Made by a program: the position numbers and the translations under genes. Source: Thiofilum flexile DSM 14609 (GTDB taxonomy: Bacteria > Pseudomonadota > Gammaproteobacteria > Thiotrichales > Thiotrichaceae). Taken from it: a stretch of DNA of 41,740 bases. Positions 964 through 28,010 of this stretch are shown here, one piece after another (position 1 is the first letter of the stretch; each line of letters starts with the position of its first letter). Location: assembly GCF_000380185.1 (NCBI RefSeq), contig NZ_KB904767.1:1-41740 (forward strand), written 5' to 3'. The notes beneath the pieces are model-generated. The model was not told the DNA's origin, ran no database searches, and saw only the letters and a program-made list of their open reading frames with translations.

Positions 964-2892
964 ATGGGTTTGCTTATTATGTTAATGCTCAATGGATGGC
1001 GTACTGCTTTACTCTGTGCTGGATTAGTCTTACCTAGTTTAGGATACACAGAGGAGTTCATAACAACAGATCGTTTTATTATTAATTACGAACCTACTAT
1101 TGGGGCTATGAGTGCTTCTAATCAACTAGCCCATCAAAATCTCATGACCCAAGCAGCGGAAGATCTAACGGGTCTAGACCTAAAACATACTCGTACCCTT
1201 GCTACCGGAGCAGATGTCTTAGTCGCTAGACAAAACATGACCCTTGAAGCCGCCCAAGTTTACGCAGATACCCTAGCGACTTTGCCGGGTGTGGTCAGTG
1301 TTGAACCCGATATCCCTCTGCACCCCAATTTATTACAACCACAAGACCCTTTTTATACTCAACAATCCTATTTATTTGCCCCTAAAGCTAACTATCTCAG
1401 TGCTATTAATGCAGAAGCCGCATGGTCTATTACCCAAGGCGACTCATCGCTTGTCATTGGCGTGCTTGATACTGGGATTACCGAGCATCCTGATCTTAAT
1501 GCTAACCTTGTAGGACACAGTGCTGCTCTCTCTGGCTATGATTTTATTAGTAATGCCAACGTGGCGCGTGATAATGATGCCCGCGATAGCGACCCTACCG
1601 ATCAAGGTACGCTAGATACTACCGAATGGCATGGCACCCATGTGGCTGGACTCATCGCCGCACGGCAAAACGAACAAGGTATTTCTGGTGTTAGCCCTAA
1701 TAGCACCCTACTCAATGCACGGATTATGGGCGCTAATGGGGGTTATACCTCGGATCTAATTGATGCTATCTATTGGGCGATTGGTGAGCCTGTACTCAAT
1801 ACCCCTATCAATCAACACCCCGCACGGATTTTAAATTTAAGCCTTGGTGGACGTAGTGCTATTTGCTCACCTACCCTACAAACCGCCCTCGATAGTGCTA
1901 ACCGTAAAGGGGTCGTGGTCGTGGTCGCCGCCGGTAATGCCGCGATTTCGGTCAGCCAACAAATGCCTGCGAACTGTGAGCATGTGATTGTAGTAGGTGC
2001 TGCGGATTATGCCGGGCAAATGGCAAGCTTTAGTAATCGGGGTAGCGCGGTGGATTTGCTGGCTCCCGGAGTTGATATCCTATCTACCTATAACACGGGC
2101 TATGATGCCCCCTTAAGTGCCACCTATAGCTCTATGACTGGTACTAGTATGTCTACCGCACTAGTGACTGGTGTGAGTGCTTTAATGTTAGCGGCTAACC
2201 CTAATCTGACTAATGGAAAAGTAGCGACAGACTCTGTTCCTGCTCTAATTGAAAGTAAACTAAAACAAAGCACTCGTACCTTTAGTAGCGGAACTCAAAC
2301 ATTATGTGCTGGACAATGTGGGGCGGGATTATTAGATGCTTTTAATGCGGTGAATGCGGTCAGCACCCCACCTGTTGCGGTAGGCAAGGCTGCTGCAACT
2401 ATCGTTAAACAAACCGCGACTTTAGATGCTTCGGCTAGCAGTGATGATAGTTACAATACTCAAGGCTTAGCCTATCGCTGGGAACAAGTGCAAGGCGAAA
2501 CAGTAAAACTCAGCAACAACACTCAAGCCAAAGCTACTTTTACCGCACCGAGCCAGCCTCAAAGCTTAGTCTTTAAACTCACTGTCACCGATGATGTGGG
2601 TTTAAGTGCAAGTACAACCATTACCGTAACGATTAAGGCTGCTCCTACTCCAGTGACACCTACTGAGTCTGTGACTACCACTCCAACACCTGCTATGCCA
2701 ACACCCAACACCCCGACTCAATCAACCCCCTCTACCGAGTCTGTAACACCCACAATCCCAACTCCCTCTACCCCCGCCGTAGCCACCACCACGACTACGT
2801 CTTCAGGCGGTGGCGGTAGCGTTGAATGGTTAGTATTAGTTCTATTAGCCCTATTAGTTTATGTCAGACGGAGTACTAACTTTTGTACTTGA
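964..2892 (+). CDS. Secreted subtilisin-like serine protease (S8) with PKD-like domain and GlyGly-CTERM anchor
   Basis: This 642-aa protein is an exported peptidase of family S8. An N-terminal hydrophobic segment (about residues 2-28) serves as signal peptide. An inhibitor I9-like prodomain follows, then the catalytic domain with Asp169 (VLDTG), His223 (HGTHVAG), Asn325 (AAGN, oxyanion) and Ser395 (GTSMS). From about 470 to 560 there is a PKD/REJ-like beta domain, then a Pro/Thr-rich linker. The C-terminus has a GGGGS motif, a hydrophobic helix and an RR pair. This tripartite tail is the GlyGly-CTERM signal, which in gammaproteobacteria is processed by rhombosortase after type II secretion. 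The start at 964 lacks a clear ribosome binding site; the ATG at 979 is an alternative. The 3' end overlaps the convergent small gene by 34 bases. Confidence 0.9.
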   Translation: MGLLIMLMLNGWRTALLCAGLVLPSLGYTEEFITTDRFIINYEPTIGAMSASNQLAHQNLMTQAAEDLTGLDLKHTRTLATGADVLVARQNMTLEAAQVYADTLATLPGVVSVEPDIPLHPNLLQPQDPFYTQQSYLFAPKANYLSAINAEAAWSITQGDSSLVIGVLDTGITEHPDLNANLVGHSAALSGYDFISNANVARDNDARDSDPTDQGTLDTTEWHGTHVAGLIAARQNEQGISGVSPNSTLLNARIMGANGGYTSDLIDAIYWAIGEPVLNTPINQHPARILNLSLGGRSAICSPTLQTALDSANRKGVVVVVAAGNAAISVSQQMPANCEHVIVVGAADYAGQMASFSNRGSAVDLLAPGVDILSTYNTGYDAPLSATYSSMTGTSMSTALVTGVSALMLAANPNLTNGKVATDSVPALIESKLKQSTRTFSSGTQTLCAGQCGAGLLDAFNAVNAVSTPPVAVGKAAATIVKQTATLDASASSDDSYNTQGLAYRWEQVQGETVKLSNNTQAKATFTAPSQPQSLVFKLTVTDDVGLSASTTITVTIKAAPTPVTPTESVTTTPTPAMPTPNTPTQSTPSTESVTPTIPTPSTPAVATTTTTSSGGGGSVEWLVLVLLALLVYVRRSTNFCT

Positions 2893-17255: not shown

Positions 17256-19010
17256 TTAGTAAACATCGCGTTGATAACGCCCGTCACTAATCCATTGTTC
17301 TAACGTATTCTGGGCTTCTTCCACACTCTGTTTGCCTGCGCTGACCAGTACTTGGACCAAGGCTTGATGGACATCTTTTGCCATTTTGTTCATATCGCCA
17401 CATACATAAATATGAGCACCGGATTGCAGCCACTCATAAACGGCGGATGCATTTTCGGTAATGCGCTGTTGTACATAGATCTTCTGGGTTTGGTCGCGTG
17501 AGAACGCCACGCTCATTTTTTCTAAGGCACCTGACTTTAATAGGGCTTGCCATTCCACTTGATAGAGGAAATCAGTACGGAAACGTTGCTCCCCGAAGAA
17601 TAACCAAGTGTTCCCTGTAATCCCTTGCGCTTCACGCTCAAATAAGAAACTACGGAAGGGGGCAACACCTGTCCCTGCACCGATCATAATGACCTTAGTA
17701 TTAGGATCTTGGGGTAATTTAAAATGAGCATTCGGTTTGACTTGAATCTCGACTTTGTCCCCTAGCTCTACCTGTGCCAAAGCATTAGAGGCAGAACCAC
17801 GGTGTAAACGTTGGAGGTGGGTATACTCCACGCGTTTAATCAATAAATGTACTTCATCCGTATGAGCACTAGGGCTAGAGGCAATCGAATACTGACGCGG
17901 CTGTAATACTCGTAATAAATCAATCCATTGCTGAGCGCTAAGGGTCGATGGGTAACGTCCTACCACATCAATCCAATCGGCATCGGTTAGCCATTCAAAA
18001 TCGGCTTTAGCATCCAGCTCCGCTACCAATGTTTCATTGCCAATCAGCTCTGCATACGCTTTTAGCTGTTTGCGGGTCAGGCTGGTTAACTCGCGCTCTT
18101 GTAGTGCCTCTGCAAAAGAACTGTTACCCGTTTTAGTCGTCACTGTTGCGGAACTGTCCAAACCCAACGCTTGAATAAACTCGGCAACAAATTCGGGATT
18201 ATTTTTGGTTTTCACTACTAAGATATCGCCCGGCGCATAGCTTAAACCAGAATCTTCTAGTGAAAACTCGATATGATAGACATCTTTATCAGACTGGCTG
18301 GCAGTCACACTGACACGATTTAAAACTTCAGCTGCAAAAAAACTATCGGTTGCTTGAGCAACTTGAGCACTGACCGCATTCGGGCGTAGAGAAACGACAT
18401 TGCTCGGTGCTGCGGGCAATTGCTCAATGACGGCCTGTTGCCAAGAACTCGCAGGCTCGGCAAAGTCCACATCGCAATCGGTGCGCTTCACAATAGGTTT
18501 AGCGCCTAACTCGGCTAAACGTGCATCGAGTAACACACCGGCTTGGCAAAATTCTTCATAACTTGAGTCGCCTAACGCTAGCACAGAATACTCTAACTGC
18601 TCTAAACGAGGCGCACGTTTATCTTGTAGGAATTTGTAAAAAGCACGCGCTTCATCCGGCGGCTCACCATTTCCCTGCGTACTCACAACAACATATAAAC
18701 GCGTTTCTTTTTTCAGGTTTTGCGGGCGGTAATCTTTAATATTACTAAGGGTTACAGTCACCCCTTTAGCTTGTAGAGCCGCCTGAAGCTCTGTCGCTAC
18801 CTTTTTACTATTGCCAGTTTGTGTGCCGTATAACACGGTTGCAGTCAGTGCCGTAGTAAGATTAGCGGCGGGGGTCGTTTGGGTCACTTGTCCGACTAAA
18901 GCGGTTTGCGATAAACCACTGAAATAACCGCCTAGCCATGCCAATTGTGTCGGTGATAAGCCGCTTATGGCATTGGTCACTTGCTGAAGCTGCTGCTCAC
19001 TCAAAACCAT
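17256..19010 (-). CDS. cysJ: Sulfite reductase (NADPH) flavoprotein, alpha subunit
   Basis: CysJ carries electrons from NADPH through FAD and FMN to CysI. The 584-aa product has a flavodoxin domain (FMN loop YGTQTGNS at 61-68), a connecting FAD domain with RQYSIASSP, and an NADP domain with GAGTGVAPFRSF and YVCGDMNKMAKDV. It ends SDGRYQRDVY, the conserved CysJ C-terminus. I start at the ATG at 19010, with GGAG nine bases upstream; a longer frame reaches 19025. This is the first gene of the leftward operon cysJ-cysH-cysD-cysN-cysI-permease, and its control region is the 19011-19426 interval. Confidence 0.95.
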   Translation of the reverse strand: MVLSEQQLQQVTNAISGLSPTQLAWLGGYFSGLSQTALVGQVTQTTPAANLTTALTATVLYGTQTGNSKKVATELQAALQAKGVTVTLSNIKDYRPQNLKKETRLYVVVSTQGNGEPPDEARAFYKFLQDKRAPRLEQLEYSVLALGDSSYEEFCQAGVLLDARLAELGAKPIVKRTDCDVDFAEPASSWQQAVIEQLPAAPSNVVSLRPNAVSAQVAQATDSFFAAEVLNRVSVTASQSDKDVYHIEFSLEDSGLSYAPGDILVVKTKNNPEFVAEFIQALGLDSSATVTTKTGNSSFAEALQERELTSLTRKQLKAYAELIGNETLVAELDAKADFEWLTDADWIDVVGRYPSTLSAQQWIDLLRVLQPRQYSIASSPSAHTDEVHLLIKRVEYTHLQRLHRGSASNALAQVELGDKVEIQVKPNAHFKLPQDPNTKVIMIGAGTGVAPFRSFLFEREAQGITGNTWLFFGEQRFRTDFLYQVEWQALLKSGALEKMSVAFSRDQTQKIYVQQRITENASAVYEWLQSGAHIYVCGDMNKMAKDVHQALVQVLVSAGKQSVEEAQNTLEQWISDGRYQRDVY

Positions 19011-19069
19011 TATTGAAATCTCCATACCACTAATGAGAAATGTTAATGCGGGATAGTATGGAATAAAGC

Positions 19070-19151: not shown

Positions 19152-19263
19152 ACAAACAGTGAGCGGGTATTTCTTCCGCAGTCGCTGTGAATACGTCCTT
19201 GTACGCTACAAGGCGGCATCCCTGCCGCCAAGACTGCTCCAGAAATACCCGCTCACTGTTTGT
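19152..19263. repeat. Structured palindromic intergenic repeat, copy 1
   Basis: A 23-bp perfect inverted repeat (19152-19174 with 19241-19263) closes a conserved interior of about 66 bases. The interior itself folds: GCAGTC pairs with GACTGC, and within that lie two hairpins, CCTTGTA-CGC-TACAAGG and GGCGGCA-TCCC-TGCCGCC. A second copy at 24712-24817 shares the 76-base core (19170-19245) with two substitutions. This copy lies between the divergent cysJ and the exporter operon. It looks like a REP-type intergenic element. Confidence 0.85.
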
Positions 19264-19426
19264 TTTCGTTCAACTCAAATAGCGCCTGAAGAATAGCTGA
19301 AGAAATTAAGCAAACTCAAAACATTAATTGTTTAAACATTAAGGATATTGTTCCTAGAGCCTGCCATTTTTTATGCTATCCGGCATACTTTAAAAACTCT
19401 TATTGGTATGGGCTAACTTTATTTTT

Positions 19427-20815
19427 ATGATTCAATATCCGTTTAAATTAGTTTTTTTATTGTGTATTAGCGGATTAATCAGTGCTTGTAGTATGGGTAC
19501 ACCCTCTGCTACCTCTGCACCGACCTCGAACAGCGCCGCCTCAATACCTCAAGCAACTAACACTAATATTCGTGTACCACTCGCCAAGCGCCCAGCTATT
19601 CAGACAGCATGGTGGCAACGCTTTAATGACCCACTTATGGTGGCTTTAATTCAAGAATCGTGGCAGGCCAATCCTTCCCTTACTGTGGCAAGAGCTAGTG
19701 TACAATCCGCTCGCGCTCAAGGTGTAATAGCCGGAGCCAGCCTATTACCCACCGTATCCAGTAGTATGAGTGCACGGGATACCAGTAGTAGCAGTCCTAG
19801 CTGGTCATTAGGGGCGGATGCGAGTTGGGAATTGGATTTATGGGGAGGTAATCGCCTCACGGCTAAGGCCGCTAATGAGGATCTTAAAGCGGCTCAAGCG
19901 AGCTATGAGGATGTGAAAGCTTCCTTAGCAGCGGAGGTAGCCAGTGCCTATGTGAATCTTCGTCTGGCGCAAGCGCGATTAAGTCTATCCAATCAAACCA
20001 ATAAATCGCGTGAAGAAACCATGCGCTTAACTGAAATGCGCCTAAAAGCGGGTCTAGATAGTGGCCTCACTACGGAACAAGCCCGCTTAAGCTTAGGCCA
20101 AAATCAGGCTAATCTGCCTACCCTAAATAGTGCCGTACAACGCGCCCAATATGCACTTGCTGTTTTAACCGGAAAATCACCGCAAGCACTAACTCAACGT
20201 CTGAGCACGATTAAACCTATTCCGACCGCGACCGGACGTATTCAACCCAATATCCCGGCTAATGCACTGCGCCAGCGTCCCGACATGCGGGCGGCTGAAT
20301 ATCAAATTGCTGCGGCTCAGGCACGCATTGGAGCCGCAAAAGCCGACCTGTATCCTAGCTTTAGTTTATCTGGTACATTAACTAACAGTGGGCTTACGCT
20401 GGCGGATATTTTAGATCCGAGCGCTATTGTTAAAGCATTAGTGGCTTCGATTAGTGCGCCAATATTTAATGGCGGAAAATTAAGACAACAGGTTGTTATA
20501 AAAGACGCAGCCTATAATCAAGCAGTCGCCAATTATCAACAAACAGTACTGACTGCGCTCAAAGACATTGCAGATGGTTTCGCTACTCTACAAGGTCTAC
20601 AACGACAACAACCAATTCTACAAAAAAATCTAGCTACTGCACGTAGTGCTGAACATTTGGCTAACTTAAGCTATCAAGCTGGCGTGGATGACTTTCAAAA
20701 TGTACTGGATGCACAACGCTCCATCTTAAGTACACAAGAAAGTTTATTATCCGCGCAAGCAGACTACAGTTTAGCCTTAATCAGCCTCTATAAAGCAGTC
20801 GGCGGGGCATGGTAA
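19427..20815 (+). CDS. TolC/NodT-family outer-membrane efflux lipoprotein
   Basis: A 462-aa outer-membrane channel of the OprM/NodT type. From the ATG at 19427 it has a lipoprotein signal peptide with lipobox ISAC (Cys21). Two repeated outer-membrane efflux domains follow, each rich in alpha-helical coiled coil (AAQASYEDVKASLAAEVASA and its counterpart VANYQQTVLTALKDIADGF). The RPDMRAAEYQIAAAQARIGAAKADLYPS segment is diagnostic of the family. A TTG at 19403 extends the frame but would spoil the signal peptide. It is the first gene of a four-gene exporter operon, 15 bases ahead of the adaptor. There is no obvious Shine-Dalgarno sequence. Confidence 0.9.
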   Translation: MIQYPFKLVFLLCISGLISACSMGTPSATSAPTSNSAASIPQATNTNIRVPLAKRPAIQTAWWQRFNDPLMVALIQESWQANPSLTVARASVQSARAQGVIAGASLLPTVSSSMSARDTSSSSPSWSLGADASWELDLWGGNRLTAKAANEDLKAAQASYEDVKASLAAEVASAYVNLRLAQARLSLSNQTNKSREETMRLTEMRLKAGLDSGLTTEQARLSLGQNQANLPTLNSAVQRAQYALAVLTGKSPQALTQRLSTIKPIPTATGRIQPNIPANALRQRPDMRAAEYQIAAAQARIGAAKADLYPSFSLSGTLTNSGLTLADILDPSAIVKALVASISAPIFNGGKLRQQVVIKDAAYNQAVANYQQTVLTALKDIADGFATLQGLQRQQPILQKNLATARSAEHLANLSYQAGVDDFQNVLDAQRSILSTQESLLSAQADYSLALISLYKAVGGAW

Positions 20816-20830
20816 CAAGGGGTCTCTAAC

Positions 20831-22777
20831 ATGGCTAATAACGATATTAATGTAGCCGAATCTGTACGAGCCGTGGTGGGCAAACCCACTAAAAAAAAGG
20901 GTAACTGGGGCAAACGTTTAATCACCTTAACGGTTTTAGCCGCACTCGCAGGCGGGGGGTATTACTACTATCAGAACGCTATTATTCCGGCTAGTAGTAC
21001 CGTCACCTCTTATCAAACTGAGGCCGTGACACGGGGTAATATTAGTACCATAGTGACCGCTACCGGCACTTTACAACCAGTCAATCAAGTGGATATTGGT
21101 ACGGAGCTGTCTGGTACTATCGATGAGGTACTCGTGGATGACAATGACACCGTCAAAAAAGGGCAAAAACTCGCTAGCCTCAAGACCTCTCAATTACAAG
21201 ATAATATTACCAAAATGGAGGCCGCTTTAGCCTCAGCACGCTCTAAAGTGGCTCAGGCGAAAGCCCAACTCGCTCAAACAGACTCCAAAATCCTACAAGC
21301 CAAGGCTAATCTCAAACAGGGGATTGCCAATGCCAAGCAATCCTCGGTGCAAATTCATAAAGATCAGGCTCAGGTACAACAAAACACCGCACAACTCACA
21401 CAAAGCAATGCCTCTGTGCAGCAAAGTCTGGCTCAAGTCCAACAAAATAACGCTCAAATTCAGCAATACTATGCTCAAATTCAACAAATAAACGCTCAAA
21501 TCCAACAGGCTAAGGCAAATATTACCCAAGCTAAAGCCACTACCTTAGAAGCACGGGTCAAACTCAATCGCTTACGCGAGCTACAAAAAGCCAGTGGGGG
21601 GCGGCTACCCGCTCAAACAGAGTTAGACAGCGCGGTAGCAACTTGGCAAAAAGCACAAGCGGCAGAATCCGCTACCGTCTCTAATGTACAAGCCTTGCAA
21701 GCCAGTATTGGGGGGGTAAAGGCTAATATTGAAGCGGCTAAAGCCAATCTAGCCTCTGCTAAGGCAGGGGTTACCTCCTCCAAAGCCGGGGTCACTTCTG
21801 CCCAAGCCAGTATTGACTCAGCTAAAGCGGGAGTGAGTGCTTCCAATTTAAGTGCTGAAGCCTCGCAAGCCAATGTAGAGGGGCTACAAGCCTTAGTGCA
21901 GTCCGCTGAAGCTGATAAAATCAGCGCTAAAGCCAATGTAGAGGCGGTTAATGCTAATGTTATAGAAGCTAAGGCAAACTTACGTAGCGCTCAAAGCGAT
22001 CTTGCCAAAGCCACGATTATCTCGCCTATTGATGGCATCGTGCTCACCCGTTCGGTAGAGCCGGGGCAAACTGTAGCCTCTTCCTTATCCGCTCCGACGC
22101 TATTTACCCTCGCCGAAGACCTAAAAAAAATGGAATTACAGGTCAGTGTTGATGAGGCTGATGTGGGGCAAGTGCAAGAAGGCCAAACGGCTGAATTTAC
22201 TGTGGATGCTTGGTCTGGGCGTAAATACTCCGCCACTATTACACGGGTGAGTTTAGGCTCCACCATTACCGATAATATTGTGTCCTATACCACGCTGCTG
22301 ATGGTTGCTAATGATGACCTAACCCTACGTCCGGGTATGACAGCGACTGCTAATATTAATACTAAAGTGCATGAGAATGTCCTCCTTGTGCCTAATGCGG
22401 CTTTACGCTTCACGCCCCCAAGTGCTGCAGCCGATTCCGAGACAAAAGCGGGGGGTGATTTTTTATCTAAACTCATGCCTAGCCCTCCTATGCGCCGAGA
22501 TCGCAACCGTAACAATAGTGCTAATAATCGCTCCCGGAGCGGAGAGCAACAGATTTGGATCTTAAAAGATAATCAGCCCTCACCTATCACTGTCCAAATA
22601 GGCTTAAGTAATAGCAAAGTAACCGAGATTATTTCTGATCAAATCACTGAAGGCACTGCGGTGATTACAGGTACTAGTACAGGTGTCTCAGGTCGCCCTA
22701 ATCGCCAAGGACGCTCCGGTCAAGGAGGACAAGGCGGGCAAAGGGGTATAGGTGCTAATCGCGGGGCGCAACCATGA
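20831..22777 (+). CDS. macA: MacA/HlyD-family periplasmic adaptor with greatly extended coiled coil
   Basis: This adaptor links the inner-membrane MacB-type transporter to the TolC-type channel. At 648 aa it is far longer than the 370-400 aa usual for MacA. The N-terminal helix at about 28-47 anchors it in the inner membrane. A lipoyl half follows (TGTLQPVNQVDIGTELSG), then a long hairpin of Ala/Gln/Lys heptads from about 105 to 390 with the turn near GGRLPAQTELD. The second lipoyl half (ATIISPIDGIVL) and the beta-barrel domain come next. Residues 180-228 are seven heptads of AQ(I/V)QQ type, encoded by seven 21-base units (21368-21514). An Arg/Asn-rich insertion (near 555-570) and a Gly/Gln/Arg-rich tail are unusual. 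The stop overlaps the ABC gene by four bases. Confidence 0.88.
   Translation: MANNDINVAESVRAVVGKPTKKKGNWGKRLITLTVLAALAGGGYYYYQNAIIPASSTVTSYQTEAVTRGNISTIVTATGTLQPVNQVDIGTELSGTIDEVLVDDNDTVKKGQKLASLKTSQLQDNITKMEAALASARSKVAQAKAQLAQTDSKILQAKANLKQGIANAKQSSVQIHKDQAQVQQNTAQLTQSNASVQQSLAQVQQNNAQIQQYYAQIQQINAQIQQAKANITQAKATTLEARVKLNRLRELQKASGGRLPAQTELDSAVATWQKAQAAESATVSNVQALQASIGGVKANIEAAKANLASAKAGVTSSKAGVTSAQASIDSAKAGVSASNLSAEASQANVEGLQALVQSAEADKISAKANVEAVNANVIEAKANLRSAQSDLAKATIISPIDGIVLTRSVEPGQTVASSLSAPTLFTLAEDLKKMELQVSVDEADVGQVQEGQTAEFTVDAWSGRKYSATITRVSLGSTITDNIVSYTTLLMVANDDLTLRPGMTATANINTKVHENVLLVPNAALRFTPPSAAADSETKAGGDFLSKLMPSPPMRRDRNRNNSANNRSRSGEQQIWILKDNQPSPITVQIGLSNSKVTEIISDQITEGTAVITGTSTGVSGRPNRQGRSGQGGQGGQRGIGANRGAQP
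21368..21514 (+). repeat. Tandem 21-base repeats within the adaptor gene
   Basis: Seven consecutive 21-base units encode heptads such as AQVQQNN, AQIQQYY, AQIQQIN and AQIQQAK. The last four units (from 21431) are the most alike at DNA level, each beginning GCTCAA. They suggest growth of the coiled coil by unit duplication. Confidence 0.8.
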
Positions 22778-23496
22778 ACCTAATCGAGCTACGTCAAATC
22801 ACTAAAACCTATGGACAAGGGCAAGCTCAATTTCAAGCTCTTAAAGGCGTCGACCTTGTGATTGAAAAAGGTGACTTTGTGGCGGTGATGGGGCCTAGTG
22901 GTTCAGGTAAATCGACTTGTATGAATATTTTAGGCTGCCTCGATATACCCACAGGAGGGGAGTATCACTTTCGTGATGTACAAGTAGAACAACTCGACCG
23001 CAACCAACGCGCCCTATTACGCCGCTTTTATTTCGGCTTTGTGTTTCAGGGATTTAACTTATTAGCGCGTACTTCCGCCCAAGAAAATGTTGAACTCCCC
23101 CTCCTCTATCGCGGTGAATCTAGCAGTGAACGCCGTAAAGCTGCACAGGCTGCACTAGAACAAGTCGGACTATCCCAATGGGGGCATCATACCCCAGTAG
23201 AGCTTTCGGGTGGTCAACAACAGCGGGTTGCGATTGCGCGAGCTATTGTGACTAGTCCAGAGCTATTACTCGCCGATGAGCCAACAGGGAATCTGGACTC
23301 CAAACGCAGTCACGAAATTATGGAGCTATTGGTTGATCTCAATCAAACCCACGGCATTACCATTGTGATGGTCACGCATGAGCCGGATATGGCGGAATAT
23401 GCTAAGCGTATTGTGCATTTCGTGGATGGTAATATTGCGAGTGATACCCGCCATCGCCCTCTCAGAGCCGAGGAGATCATCAATGTTTTGGAATAG
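22774..23496 (+). CDS. MacB-type ABC transporter ATP-binding subunit
   Basis: A 240-aa ATPase of the MacB/LolD family that powers the exporter. It has Walker A GPSGSGKST (40-48), the Q-loop in FVFQGFNLL, signature LSGGQQQRVAIARAI, Walker B LLLADEPTGNLDS and the switch histidine in MVTHEPDMA. In MacB proper this domain is fused to the permease; here it is a separate polypeptide whose end overlaps the permease start by 14 bases. The start overlaps the adaptor stop by four bases. Confidence 0.94.
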   Translation: MNLIELRQITKTYGQGQAQFQALKGVDLVIEKGDFVAVMGPSGSGKSTCMNILGCLDIPTGGEYHFRDVQVEQLDRNQRALLRRFYFGFVFQGFNLLARTSAQENVELPLLYRGESSSERRKAAQAALEQVGLSQWGHHTPVELSGGQQQRVAIARAIVTSPELLLADEPTGNLDSKRSHEIMELLVDLNQTHGITIVMVTHEPDMAEYAKRIVHFVDGNIASDTRHRPLRAEEIINVLE

Positions 23497-24694
23497 TTTA
23501 ATCTTGGCGATGCGTGAAATTCGGCGCAATTTATTACGTTCTTTTTTAACCATTTTAGGCATTGTGATTGGGGTCGCTGCGGTTATTACTATGGTCACAT
23601 TGGGCAATGGTGCAACACAGGCGGTCAAAAACCAAGTCGCTAGTTTAGGTAGTAATTTACTCCAAATCCGCACCGGACAACGGATGATGGAGCCACCCGG
23701 TGGTGGGGGCGGTGTGCCTAATTTTCGCGTTGAAGATGCACAGGCGATTCGTAATGAAATTAGTGGGCTAGCGGCGGTATCACCTCAAGTATCACGCACT
23801 GCTACCGTGGTCGCTATGGCTAAGAACTGGTCTACGAGTGTTACGGGTGCTGATAATGACTTTTTTACGGCGGGCAATTGGAGCTTAGAAACAGGCCGCA
23901 CCTTTTCAGATGCCGAACTGGAGACGGGGCAATCGGTTTGTTTACTCGGTGCTACCCTGAGAAAGGAACTCTATGGCACTCGTGAACCTTTAGGCGAACG
24001 CTTAAGGGTCAAAAATTTTTCCTGTGAAATTATTGGTATTTTAAAAGCCAAAGGCCAAGCTGCGATGGGGCGTGATCAGGACGACACTTTAATCATGCCC
24101 TTAAAAACGGTGCAGCGGCGCTTACTTGGCAATAACGATGTATCGACCATTTCCATTTCTGTTCAAGACGAAAATAATATTACTCAAGCTCAAAGTGAGA
24201 TCACTGAATTATTACGCAAACGCCGCCGCCTAACTGAGGGTGAGGATGATAATTTTAATATTATGGATACCCGCCAAATTGCCGACGCGCTCTCCGGTAC
24301 GACGCAAGTCATGACTACGCTCTTAGGTGCGGTTGCTTCGGTGAGCCTATTGGTAGGCGGGATTGGTATTATGAATATTATGCTGGTGTCCGTGACGGAG
24401 CGTACCCGTGAGATTGGTATCCGTTTAGCCATTGGTGCCTTAGAGCGTGAAGTATTAATGCAATTTTTGACCGAGGCGGTGATGCTCTCAGCCTTGGGCG
24501 GGTTAATTGGCATTATACTAGCCACACTAGCCTCCTATGTGCTGTCGGGTGTGATGAATGTGCCTTATGAATTTAATGCCGGTATTAACCTGCTCGCCTT
24601 TGGTTTCTCTGCGGGTATTGGGGTGCTATTCGGCTTTATGCCCGCAAAACGTGCAGCACGGCTAGATCCTATTAATGCGTTGCGGCATGAGTAA
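23483..24694 (+). CDS. MacB-type ABC transporter permease (FtsX domain)
   Basis: A 403-aa inner-membrane subunit. The first helix (LLRSFLTILGIVIGVAAVITM) is followed by a large periplasmic MacB_PCD domain (about 45-260). The C-terminal FtsX domain has three helices and the motif SVTERTREIGIRLAIGA. The protein ends with PAKRAARLDPINALRHE, the standard MacB permease end. I start at the ATG at 23483, with AGGAG seven bases upstream; the frame is open further up but overlaps the ATPase gene. With the two preceding proteins it should form an ATP-driven TolC-type pump; the substrate (macrolide, peptide, siderophore or lipid) cannot be told from sequence. Confidence 0.93.
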   Translation: MFWNSLILAMREIRRNLLRSFLTILGIVIGVAAVITMVTLGNGATQAVKNQVASLGSNLLQIRTGQRMMEPPGGGGGVPNFRVEDAQAIRNEISGLAAVSPQVSRTATVVAMAKNWSTSVTGADNDFFTAGNWSLETGRTFSDAELETGQSVCLLGATLRKELYGTREPLGERLRVKNFSCEIIGILKAKGQAAMGRDQDDTLIMPLKTVQRRLLGNNDVSTISISVQDENNITQAQSEITELLRKRRRLTEGEDDNFNIMDTRQIADALSGTTQVMTTLLGAVASVSLLVGGIGIMNIMLVSVTERTREIGIRLAIGALEREVLMQFLTEAVMLSALGGLIGIILATLASYVLSGVMNVPYEFNAGINLLAFGFSAGIGVLFGFMPAKRAARLDPINALRHE

Positions 24695-24711
24695 GTCACC
24701 AATAGCTGATC

Positions 24712-24817
24712 AAAAGTAAGTGGGCATTTCTTCCGCAGTCGCTGTGAATACATCCTTGTACGCTACAAGGCGGCATCCATGCCGCCAAGACTGCTCCAGA
24801 AACACCCACTTACTTTT
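24712..24817. repeat. Structured palindromic intergenic repeat, copy 2
   Basis: A second copy of the element at 19152-19263. Arms 24712-24731 and 24798-24817 pair over 20 positions with two exceptions, enclosing the same folded core. It lies between the convergent ends of the MacB-type permease gene and recC, ending ten bases before the recC stop codon on the opposite strand. In minus-strand RNA the two exceptions become G-U pairs. Confidence 0.85.
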
Positions 24818-24827
24818 AGGTCGCTGT

Positions 24828-27800
24828 TTATGCGGTTGCACGACATTGAACCAACGGTGACCAAAACTGCTTAGCTAACTCCACAAAACGTGGGTCATCC
24901 TCAATCGGATTAAGCCCACGATAAAGCAAAGCATTTTCAGGTTTTTCTGCTTCTGAGCTACTGTATTCACTCCCCTCCCACGCATTAATAGCTTTTTTCA
25001 GATCCTGATTTTTATCTTCAGCAAGGGCTAAACCGGCCTTAGGAAAACATGGCAATGGCTCACACATTCCCTGCCAATAGGTATTTATAAACTGCATGAG
25101 TAAGTATTGAGTATCTTCATCGATAGCTTGCAGAGTAAAAGTTTTATCGGCGCTATATACTAAGGTTGTTTTAGTAGGACTATCCGCACAATGATTCAGT
25201 GCTAAATGCTTCAGCCAAATATCCACCCATTGCCATGCATGGATTTTACCTATCTTAAAGACTAAGCGCCCTTGTTTAGTTAGCTCGCCAATACTGCCAT
25301 GGAGCTGAAAATCCTGTACCTTAAAATCAAAATGCTGGGGGGCTAACCATTCAATATTCCCCGCTGCGGTTAAACTCCGATAAAACTGCTCGGTACGCTC
25401 GACTTGTTCCTCATAGAGTAAATCCCCCGGTTTACCATGCGGTAATTTCCCCTCCGCCCGTAAGCGCCGACTTAATAGCTTTGGATCAAGCTTTTGATTC
25501 AAATGCTGATCTAATAAAGTAGTGGCTATTTCATCCCCGGCATAATCCTCTAATTCAAAAGGCTCGCGCTCTGGTAACTCAATAGCTCGATCACGGATTC
25601 TTAGATTTAATCGTTTCGCTAAAAAATCACGAGCCGGTTGGCGATAGTAACTCACTAAGGTTTCTAAACCCACTCGCTTATATTCTTCATGCAACGGTGG
25701 TAAGGGTTCGGTTTGCCAAAATTTAATAAATGACTGAGGAGCTTGCTGGCGTGCTTTATAGGCTTCTGCATAATGGGCTGAATAGGTAAATAAACCCTCA
25801 TCCGTAAAATAGCGCGTGCTAAAGGGTTGTAAGGGATGCTTAGTGATTAATGCTTTTGGCTCTAATGCAAAGCGCTTGGTAATGTAATCTAATAGCTCGG
25901 TGACTAAAATAGAGGGCATAATTTCATTATTATCATAAACACTTTGCCCGACATAACTAATATATAAACGGGAGCGGGCGGATAACACACTTTCTAGAAA
26001 TAAATAGCGATCCTCTTCCCGTCTTGAACGGTCGCCGCGTTGTTTTTTATCCTGTGCTAGACGATCAAAACTGAGATAGGTATCGATGCGTGGAAATGCC
26101 TTATCCTGCATGCCCAACAAAGCAACAAGCTTAAAGGGTACGCTACGCATGGGCATTAAGGCGCAAAACGTAATCCCGCGCCCCATAAAACCTTCGGCTT
26201 GATTACGCTGCTCTAAACCATTACGCAAGGCTTCCCGCACAATACGCCAACTCACCGGACGCTCGAATTGGGCTTCAGTCAGACTTTGCTGAGCAATATC
26301 CTCTAAGGTTTTCAGTACTGTTTTTAAGTCCTCTGTATCGCCCAAGACTTGCTTAAATAACTCTCGTACTCGCTCTGCCCAGACCTGAATCGTTTGTAGT
26401 TGCCGCCCCCAATCTGCTAGGGCAAATAAAGGCTCTAACCATTGCAGAAAACGCCCCAATACTTGTGCCTGAGACCCTTCAATCGCGGGATAGGGTAAAA
26501 CCTCATTCATTAACTCATCAACCGGATACACAAACCCCAGCAATAAACGATCTAACCCATAACGCCACGTATGCTCAAAGGTATCGGCTCCACCTTGTTT
26601 AACACGGCGCTCAGCATCTACCCCCCAGCGAATTTTGGTTTTACTCACCCAGATACGGCACTGATGCACATCGTCTAAATCCAAACCCGCCTCGGCACGC
26701 ACTACCTCATTTTCTAAGAGTTCAAAAATACGTTCCGCTTCAAAACGACTATCGGGCAAATCCAACAATTGCAAGCAGGTAGTGATAATGCTTTGAAGTT
26801 GTTTAGGTGACTGGTCGGCAAGACTGAAAGGCAGACGTTGTTTGGGATCACTTACCGTGCCAAATACTGCTTCGATATAGGGGGCATACTGATCAATATC
26901 GGGCGTCATCACCACTATATCCGAGGGAGCGAGCGTTGGGTCGTCCTCAATCGCCGCAAGGATTTGATCATACAGCACCTGCACCTCGCGCATAGGCGAA
27001 TGGCAACTATGCACCCGCACCGAATAATCCTCCGCCAGCTCTAAGGGAAAAACGCTTTCAGAACTCGGAACATGCAGATTGAGAATATCGGCCTGAATCA
27101 CCTTAAGCATTAGGCTACGTGACTCTAGCGTTTGAATCGGCAAAATAAATTGTTCTTGCTCCAGCGGATAAGGTTCTAGGGAGCGTAAATTACCAATAAA
27201 ATCACGCCCCTGTGTACCCCATGAGGCGAGTAAGGGATTTCCAATATCGGATAGCTCTTGTTGTTCTACGCTTAATTTAATCAAACGCTTTTCGGATTCA
27301 ATATCGCTCCAATACTCTTGGGTAGGATTCATAATAAAGAAGTAAATATCAATGAATTGCGCCACTTGATTGACGAGATTGATATAGGCTTTAGAGACGG
27401 CGGGAATGGAGAAAAAGATATAGCGTTTAGGTAAATCTTGAGGGGGCTGTTGTTGCAGTGCCTGTATAAAATCATCCTGTAAGCGTACCCAATGCTGTAA
27501 TTGCTCACTCACCACTACATTACGCCAGAGTCGCCCCTGCCAATCGTGCTCTGCTAAAGTGAGGGCAGAATTTTCCCAGTCTTTAATCCACAAAGGCCGA
27601 AAGAATACATAACCATCAAATACCCTAGCAACCTGTTGAGCTAATTGCCATGCAGCTCCCTCGTCTCCTTCTTTTAAGTAATGTTGCAACTCTGGATAAC
27701 GCACCGCATGCTCTAAAAACTCTTGAAATAAACGCCAACGCAATAACTTAGGCGAGCACGGGTCATGTTTAGGGACAGTAGGCAAGACTTTACGCAATAA

Positions 27801-28010
27801 TTCCCAAGTCGCCTCCGCAGGAAAGAGATAACGCGTATTCGCCGCAATGTTATTATGGATAGCGGTTTGCATCGACAACCAGCGCCCCATGCCCGCGTTT
27901 TGTACCACCACGGTCTCGCCCTCCATAGGAGGCAAAGGCTTAGTGCGGATAAATTCAGCGTATAAAGCGGCTAATGACTCTAGTTGATTGCTATGGATTA
28001 GATACAGCAT
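24828..28010 (-). CDS. recC: Exodeoxyribonuclease V gamma subunit RecC
   Basis: RecC is the subunit of RecBCD that splits the DNA duplex and reads Chi during double-strand break repair. The 1060-aa protein is near the usual 1100. It begins MLYLIHSNQLESLAALYAEF with the following VVVQNAGMGRWL block, and includes SFSLADQSPKQ, the FCALMPMRSVPFKLVALLGM helicase-like motif and RLYISYVGQS, all typical of RecC. It has the inactive helicase and nuclease folds of the family. recB and recD usually follow on the same strand; here the gene ends at the palindromic repeat and a convergent gene, so they must lie elsewhere. It diverges from the rfaQ-like gene over 75 bases. Confidence 0.94.
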   Translation of the reverse strand: MLYLIHSNQLESLAALYAEFIRTKPLPPMEGETVVVQNAGMGRWLSMQTAIHNNIAANTRYLFPAEATWELLRKVLPTVPKHDPCSPKLLRWRLFQEFLEHAVRYPELQHYLKEGDEGAAWQLAQQVARVFDGYVFFRPLWIKDWENSALTLAEHDWQGRLWRNVVVSEQLQHWVRLQDDFIQALQQQPPQDLPKRYIFFSIPAVSKAYINLVNQVAQFIDIYFFIMNPTQEYWSDIESEKRLIKLSVEQQELSDIGNPLLASWGTQGRDFIGNLRSLEPYPLEQEQFILPIQTLESRSLMLKVIQADILNLHVPSSESVFPLELAEDYSVRVHSCHSPMREVQVLYDQILAAIEDDPTLAPSDIVVMTPDIDQYAPYIEAVFGTVSDPKQRLPFSLADQSPKQLQSIITTCLQLLDLPDSRFEAERIFELLENEVVRAEAGLDLDDVHQCRIWVSKTKIRWGVDAERRVKQGGADTFEHTWRYGLDRLLLGFVYPVDELMNEVLPYPAIEGSQAQVLGRFLQWLEPLFALADWGRQLQTIQVWAERVRELFKQVLGDTEDLKTVLKTLEDIAQQSLTEAQFERPVSWRIVREALRNGLEQRNQAEGFMGRGITFCALMPMRSVPFKLVALLGMQDKAFPRIDTYLSFDRLAQDKKQRGDRSRREEDRYLFLESVLSARSRLYISYVGQSVYDNNEIMPSILVTELLDYITKRFALEPKALITKHPLQPFSTRYFTDEGLFTYSAHYAEAYKARQQAPQSFIKFWQTEPLPPLHEEYKRVGLETLVSYYRQPARDFLAKRLNLRIRDRAIELPEREPFELEDYAGDEIATTLLDQHLNQKLDPKLLSRRLRAEGKLPHGKPGDLLYEEQVERTEQFYRSLTAAGNIEWLAPQHFDFKVQDFQLHGSIGELTKQGRLVFKIGKIHAWQWVDIWLKHLALNHCADSPTKTTLVYSADKTFTLQAIDEDTQYLLMQFINTYWQGMCEPLPCFPKAGLALAEDKNQDLKKAINAWEGSEYSSSEAEKPENALLYRGLNPIEDDPRFVELAKQFWSPLVQCRATA

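Follow-up and report, generated by a model that had tools for sequence, protein, structure and literature searches.

Why should two strongly folded palindromes stand on either side of an exporter operon, and what, if anything, keeps their fold intact? The question is raised by a DNA stretch of 41,740 nucleotides (nt) from Thiofilum flexile DSM 14609 (contig NZ_KB904767.1; referred to as the window), in which an earlier note made from the letters alone had reported a pair of palindromic elements. Both copies are present where it had placed them, the ungapped element corresponding to positions 19155-19260 (copy 1) and 24712-24817 (copy 2). We assign a probability of roughly 0.6 to the view that these copies are gammaproteobacterial non-autonomous mobile palindromes akin to YPAL/RU-2, the Yersinia palindromic repeat, and that the strand carrying their GGA triplets (the GGA strand), when transcribed, acts as a dispersed docking site or decoy for CsrA, a common RNA-binding regulator.

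Copies of the element and alignments

A search of the Thiofilum flexile genome (3.79 Mb in 71 contigs) with an 18-base piece of the core yielded 95 occurrences at up to three mismatches, whereas the reversed control pattern yielded none. Reading 90 of the 95 places confirmed at least 90 full or partial copies, including the window pair; the remaining five places all carry three mismatches and are possibly due to chance. With at least 90 copies against no control match, chance as the origin of the window pair is excluded, and the presence of some 90 copies in the genome suggests that the location of two of them around the exporter operon needs no special explanation. The core, 106 nt in length and with outer ends TAAGTA..TACTTA in many copies, combines a long stem formed by the arms, a shorter stem inside it and two hairpins (P3 and P4).

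Four alignments were used. A1 is an ungapped alignment of 78 of the 90 copies from the Thiofilum genome, the other 12 being seven long variants, three shortened or replaced copies (L066, L089 and L099), one that has an extra base (L039) and one that runs off the end of its locus. A2 holds 86 of the matches listed for members of the family, A3 holds 34 matches in 28 of 29 loci, including one near-identical pair of rows, and A4 holds 40 matches in 34 of 38 loci (L242-L279), four having been omitted as own-genome loci or as already present in A3. A4 and A3, the latter being the basis of search model R3, overlap at no fewer than two places (L256 and, by coordinates with L139, L247). Related copies are not independent of one another; A3 and A4 were drawn from many genera.

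Maintenance of the fold and strand preference

In A1 each of the 20 arm pairs shows two-sided changes, and doubly changed cells number 199, as compared with 39.8 in shuffled alignments and 17-34 in slid structures. The corresponding values for A4 are 558, 163 and 118-139, and the P3 and P4 stems covary together with the arms across these genera. Copy L007 carries six compensated arm pairs relative to the consensus and an unchanged core, and many other copies with altered arms still have all 20 arm pairs intact. Neither a lack of further copies nor arm variation without compensation, the two outcomes that the earlier note had named as contrary to its reading, was thus encountered. Between the window copies the core differs at two positions, as the note had stated, and three arm pairs, one more than it had counted, are changed on both sides (C-G to A-T, G-C to A-T and C-G to T-A); the mispairs of copy 2 had been correctly given as C/A and A/C on the plus strand and are hence G-U on the minus strand. 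Predicted folding energies are −60.3 (plus-strand RNA) and −63.4 kcal/mol (minus-strand RNA) for copy 1, the arms of which reach 3 nt further on each side (19152-19183 with 19232-19263, 91% complementary), and −49.1 and −55.6 kcal/mol for copy 2. On either strand both copies fold far more stably than shuffled sequence (z −8.0 to −9.7).

The remaining arm mispairs distinguish the two strands. Read in the GGA orientation, G-U and A-C mispairs number 84 and 10 in A1, 139 and 62 in A2, 44 and 12 in A3, and 22 and 4 in A4, and the last count is the same when L256 is removed. The bias in A1 is also seen by column (24 vs 4, sign test p = 1.8e-4) and after removal of the columns with widely shared mispairs (42 G-U vs 18 A-C). 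The strand read leftward in the window, i.e. the GGA strand, is the one that is kept foldable.

CsrA-type loops on the conserved strand

On the GGA strand the core presents two hairpins, each with a C[ANGGAN]G hexaloop, and the GGA triplets are 19-22 nt apart in all alignments (20 in the window copies). Both ANGGAN hairpins occur in 71 of 78 rows of A1, 53 of 86 of A2, 23 of 34 of A3 and 39 of 40 of A4, whereas two such hairpins on the antisense strand were found in no row of A1-A4. The GGA bases and the preceding A are kept in 76-78 of the 78 copies of A1, where loop conservation is unbiased except within the search pattern (columns 44-61, including the A before the P4 GGA). Among the 42 core columns outside this pattern, the four N positions of the loops rank 1, 2, 3 and 6 in variability (p = 1.3e-4). 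Across genera the P4 stem takes the forms UAC/GUA, CCC/GGG, UCC/GGA, CAC/GUG and others, and the loop-closing C-G pairs are invariant in A4 (39/39 and 40/40).

The consensus obtained for CsrA by systematic evolution of ligands by exponential enrichment (SELEX) is RUACARGGAUGU with hexaloops closed by AC/GU, the recognition loop of RsmE is ANGGAN, and CsrA bridges pairs of sites separated by 10-63 nt, optimally by more than 18 (PMC7652899). The element conforms to this site rule for CsrA/RsmA, having ANGGAN hexaloop hairpins and two sites within 10-63 nt. On the GGA strand the SELEX consensus is matched at 12 of 12 positions in 44 of 78 copies and at 11 of 12 in 32, as compared with a best match of 10 on the antisense strand; the P4 hairpin of copy 2 is the sole 12/12 site in the window when both strands are considered. 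From these sequence features we infer that the GGA-strand loops are putative CsrA binding sites. Neither the two loops nor the kinship to YPAL had formed part of the earlier note's reading.

The Thiofilum flexile genome has one csrA gene. When only genomes with a completeness of 90% or more and a contamination of 5% or less are compared, csrA was found in 59 of 60 that bear the element and in 221 of 254 that are free of it (p = 0.009), a comparison in which genome size is a possible confounder.

Distribution of the element

In the family, model R2, built from the Thiofilum copies, detected the element in seven of eight genera (11 of 63 genomes). In the sample from the class, model R3 did so in 65 of 271 genera (72 of 369 genomes). 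The Thiofilum genome is counted in both. In a sample of the phylum with an unstated number of genomes from outside this class, 28 of 398 genomes matched, all 28 belonging to the class. As no more than 9 or 10 candidates per genome were scored in the wide searches, and 62 when the family was searched, copy numbers there are lower limits. When the exact core was sought in 39 relatives, with the Thiofilum genome included, six others gave one match each at up to two mismatches, which is about the control level, and the exact core is nearly private to this genome. Exact patterns had no match in the genome-contig and viral-contig collections. A 48-nt consensus likewise gave none when compared with plasmids and with phages (each to E 0.01) and with E. 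coli genomes (to E 1). A 60-nt query gave no match in E. coli; in plasmids it matched Pantoea, one Enterobacter and, in a weak and chance-like manner, others (37 records).

An Rfam scan of the window returned no family at gathering score. When eight loci were scanned with cmscan to E 10, Ysr224 (RF02770) alone was returned, with a weak match to one Thiofilum copy (19.7 bits, E 2.8, vs a gathering score of 70), and no match to CsrB/RsmZ or TwoAYGGAY was obtained, families which were presumably included in the Rfam release used. Over the 369 genomes the best score of the Ysr224 model was 51.3 bits, likewise under gathering score, and the model served as a seed for finding relatives.

Position relative to genes

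Convergent gaps contain 29 of the 75 copies with genes called on both sides, as compared with 5 of 68 element-free gaps obtained with a simple gene caller. The copies lie at a median of 21 nt from gene 3' ends, as compared with 111 nt from 5' ends, and in tandem gaps 30 of 35 copies are closer to the 3' end of the upstream gene. Insertion or retention of the copies is therefore at gene 3' ends, just behind which they lie. The settings which the earlier note had described for the window copies were borne out by Pfam: copy 1 lies between divergent genes for a CysJ-type flavoprotein (minus strand) and an outer membrane efflux protein (plus strand), and copy 2 between convergent genes for a MacB-type permease (plus strand) and RecC (minus strand). 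Coordinates are given in Table 1.

Table 1. Coordinates of the window copies, their parts and adjacent genes, and of a related plasmid element
Feature	Position	Strand	Remarks
Element copy 1	19155..19260	- (RNA/GGA orientation)	model R2, 125.3 bits; repeat D1
Element copy 2	24712..24817	- (RNA/GGA orientation)	model R2, 123.8 bits; repeat D1
Copy 1 outer arm	19155..19174		paired with 19241-19260
Copy 1 outer arm	19241..19260		paired with 19155-19174
Copy 2 outer arm	24712..24731		paired with 24798-24817
Copy 2 outer arm	24798..24817		paired with 24712-24731
Copy 1 hairpin P3, GGC[AGGGAU]GCC	19212..19229	-	loop 19218-19223
Copy 1 hairpin P4, UAC[AAGGAC]GUA	19192..19203	-	loop 19195-19200; CsrA SELEX consensus 11/12
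Copy 2 hairpin P3, GGC[AUGGAU]GCC	24769..24786	-	loop 24775-24780
Copy 2 hairpin P4, UAC[AAGGAU]GUA	24749..24760	-	loop 24752-24757; CsrA SELEX consensus 12/12
RecC gene	24828..28010	-	3' end 10 nt before copy 2 in RNA direction
CysJ-type flavoprotein gene	17256..19025	-	129 nt downstream of copy 1 in RNA direction
Element on Pantoea agglomerans plasmid NZ_CP016890.1 (L235)	1410-1640		YPAL-type; exactly duplicated 28-bp terminator around it

Mobility and rearranged copies

The genes on either side of the Pantoea plasmid element, which scores 49.4 bits with model R3, encode a pirin and an alpha/beta-hydrolase. At the filled site the 28-bp terminator palindrome is present on each flank of the element, and at the empty site it is present once. 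Among 51 plasmid records matching this region, 14 align with 80% or more of the filled query, another 29 are about 220 bp shorter and correspond to the empty form, and eight match a single flank only. Letter-by-letter reading covered two filled sites, an empty one and an aberrant filled one that lacks the right duplicate (L241). The filled and empty sites represent an insertion that duplicated a whole terminator. In the Thiofilum genome, flanking direct repeats around 42 end-bearing copies were no longer than in mismatched pairs, and flanking inverted repeats were in slight excess (0.12 vs 0.05 with at least 7). Insertion into terminator loops and a self-palindromic target were therefore not adopted as the origin of the arms in this genome.

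The earlier note had looked to palindromes of the repetitive extragenic palindromic (REP) type and their transposase, an association that was not found: seven fragments of Y1 (IS200-type) transposase genes lie at contig ends of the Thiofilum genome (C2, C11, C23, C24, C33, C36 and C47), and the fetched flanks contain no copy of the element.

Several copies are rearranged. The seven long variants (L042, L055, L062, L074, L078, L087 and L093) have extra hairpins within the core, AAAATCGT..ACGATTTT and GGCGC..GCGCC, which do not always occur together. In nine copies (L025, L027, L029, L031, L039, L041, L054, L080 and L096) the ends CTTGAGC and GGTATACC are swapped relative to the core, as if the interior had flipped through the arms. 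Copy L028 (1498-1603) lies within another hairpin whose arms, AAAAAGTAATCGG of 13 bases, resemble those of the element, perhaps a nested insertion. On the Enterobacter plasmid NZ_CP097174.1 (L237, 1475-1802) two copies are situated about 220 nt apart in opposed orientation, and similar opposed pairs are present in L270, L276 and L248.

Proposed role and alternative explanations

Were the GGA strand transcribed, for example as the 3' end of recC, both loops could be taken by one CsrA dimer, and the transcribed copies together would form dispersed CsrA docking sites or decoys. The arm hairpin would shield or terminate the mRNA, so that a copy in the right direction could add to the message a hairpin with a two-site CsrA platform. 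In the window the candidates for such an addition are the message of recC (copy 2) and, less certainly, the leader of cysJ (copy 1), although a search of the minus strand between 19000 and 19500 gave no promoter-like site. A wider proposition, which we put forward tentatively and rate well short of even odds, is that the repeat class seen in 65 of the 271 sampled genera is a portable two-site CsrA/RsmA docking RNA, that tens of copies may form a distributed CsrA decoy, and that the element may draw on CsrA to remain stable or to move. If so, copy load would set the level of free CsrA and tie the repeat content of a genome to a global regulator.

Several observations weigh against the CsrA reading of the conserved strand. 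Among tandem gene pairs the element RNA has the sense orientation in 16 cases and the antisense orientation in 19, so that no per-gene regulatory role is visible; given this neutrality, the target of selection on the fold is probably the whole element, through its propagation or tolerance by the host, and not the regulation of each neighbouring gene. Ysr224, whose antisense bears by eye both ANGGAN loops as this element does, is a Yersinia small RNA drawn on the strand opposite to the GGA strand, and the hairpins added in the long variants likewise bear GGA on the opposite strand. In A4 just 32.5% of the cells show pairing in the stem drawn below P4, and two inner pairs of P2 are mostly not formed, which leaves part of the drawn fold unsupported. 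Two of five covariation measures in A4 are barely or not above shuffles: pairs with two-sided changes (35 vs 32.3, reached by 3 of 500 shuffles) and further pair types (110 vs 106.6, reached by 121 of 500). Loop conservation in A2-A4 is biased, since the search models contained the loops. Conservation between genomes extends to the AGC before P4 and the AUU behind it, which CsrA does not explain. Five genomes (G218, 98% complete, G364, G031, G092 and G122) bear the element, and a renewed search found no csrA in them above the cut-off. Finally, the G-U bias suits single-stranded DNA equally with RNA.

A rather doubtful alternative is that the conserved strand works as single-stranded DNA whose hairpins are recognised by a transposase or nuclease during mobilisation, with the loops as contact points and CsrA being irrelevant. 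DNA also forms G-T pairs, elements of this class are mobile and have dyads as their targets, and the combination of a strand-specific fold with neutral gene orientation fits this account, as do the five genomes without detected csrA. It leaves unexplained why the A and GGA are fixed, N is free and C-G closes the loop at two places about 20 nt apart, which is the published CsrA/RsmE rule (PMC7652899), and no hairpin-recognising enzyme was linked to the element, the fetched flanks of the Y1 fragments lacking copies. That the copies are plain bidirectional terminators or mRNA 3' protectors left by a dead miniature inverted-repeat transposable element (MITE), in which the arms matter and the core hitch-hikes, appears unlikely. 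It would account for the closeness to gene 3' ends, notably those of upstream genes in tandem gaps, and for the share of convergent gaps, and T-rich stem ends occur in 14 of 31 type-B and 8 of 47 type-A copies, labels that are heuristic and descriptive only. A terminator has no need of a conserved core, yet that of L007 is unchanged beside its six compensated arm pairs; a bidirectional terminator predicts no strand bias; and a terminator scan, whose loop limit of 8 is too short to span the core, called none within either window copy.

The arms might also covary as a mere by-product of template switching in replication (quasi-palindrome correction), with no selection on the fold. In four of the 78 copies of A1 (L067, L069, L070 and L072) the internal loop has become perfectly paired, with the letters of the right arm on both sides in three and those of the left arm in one, a conversion for which templating of one arm by the other at the DNA level is the best explanation; the many altered copies with intact arms fit the same process. 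As such copying occurs, compensated changes alone are no proof of selection on RNA, and of the earlier note's suggestion of selection for a fold in leftward-read RNA this part of the argument is lost, while preservation of the leftward-strand fold is upheld by the excess of G-U over A-C arm mispairs and by the covariation of every one of the 20 arm pairs. Arm copying has no bearing on the strand test. Template switching predicts equal numbers of both mispairs, which is contradicted in all four alignments, and the P3 and P4 stems covary while their loops stay; as the sole cause it is highly improbable. The reading as a mobile palindrome with CsrA-type loops is the one that we retain.

Comparison with known elements

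Short palindromic repeats are usually regarded as selfish debris or terminators. A literature search, with most subscription papers outside its scope, found no paper naming both YPAL and CsrA, and among papers on palindromic repeats, MITEs or repetitive extragenic elements together with CsrA, judged by their titles and the opening of their abstracts, none appears to join them; strings of the core sequence retrieved only papers which, by title, concern other subjects. The repeat class is already described in Yersinia; what appears to be new, within these searches, is how widely it occurs in the class, its covarying architecture and the CsrA reading. If correct, the last would connect the separate fields of short palindromic repeats and the Csr/Rsm network, and offers a cheap test of why such repeats keep their core intact. 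If CsrA sites are placed behind genes by a mobile element, 3' ends would have a route to post-transcriptional control, and if the docking site is real, a hopping DNA element would spread regulator-binding RNA around genomes.

YPAL/RU-2 is the nearest described element. The RU-2 core has the same order on the GGA strand, P3 with C[AAGGAU]G followed by P4 with UAC[AUGGAU]GUA at a spacing of 21 nt (PMC2759123). Like the present element, YPAL is intergenic and mobile. It targets sites at or beside dyad symmetries, where it makes target duplications of 3-26 bp, and it is expressed along with upstream genes (PMC2229807). YPAL differs in being 168 nt long with other ends and no terminal TA, as against a 106-nt core with arms that vary between copies. 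Length and ends thus make the Thiofilum element a relative and not YPAL in the strict sense. Decoys of the CsrB/RsmZ type are dedicated small RNA genes, whereas the present element is repeated at dispersed places and has two loop sites. These decoys too carry GGA in ANGGAN hairpin loops, with several sites per RNA (PMC7652899). GTAG-tagged REPs, which are associated with REP-associated tyrosine transposases (RAYTs), and CGTC-tagged REPs are likewise high-copy intergenic palindromes, but they measure 20-40 bp and carry a GTAG or CGTC tag, and the GTAG type is moved by the tyrosine transposase (PMC3733652), to which no link of this element was found. ERIC, NEMIS and other TA-ended MITEs are imperfect palindromes of about 100-150 bp with TA ends (PMC2229807), and the present element, set beside them by description, resembles them in size and ends only.

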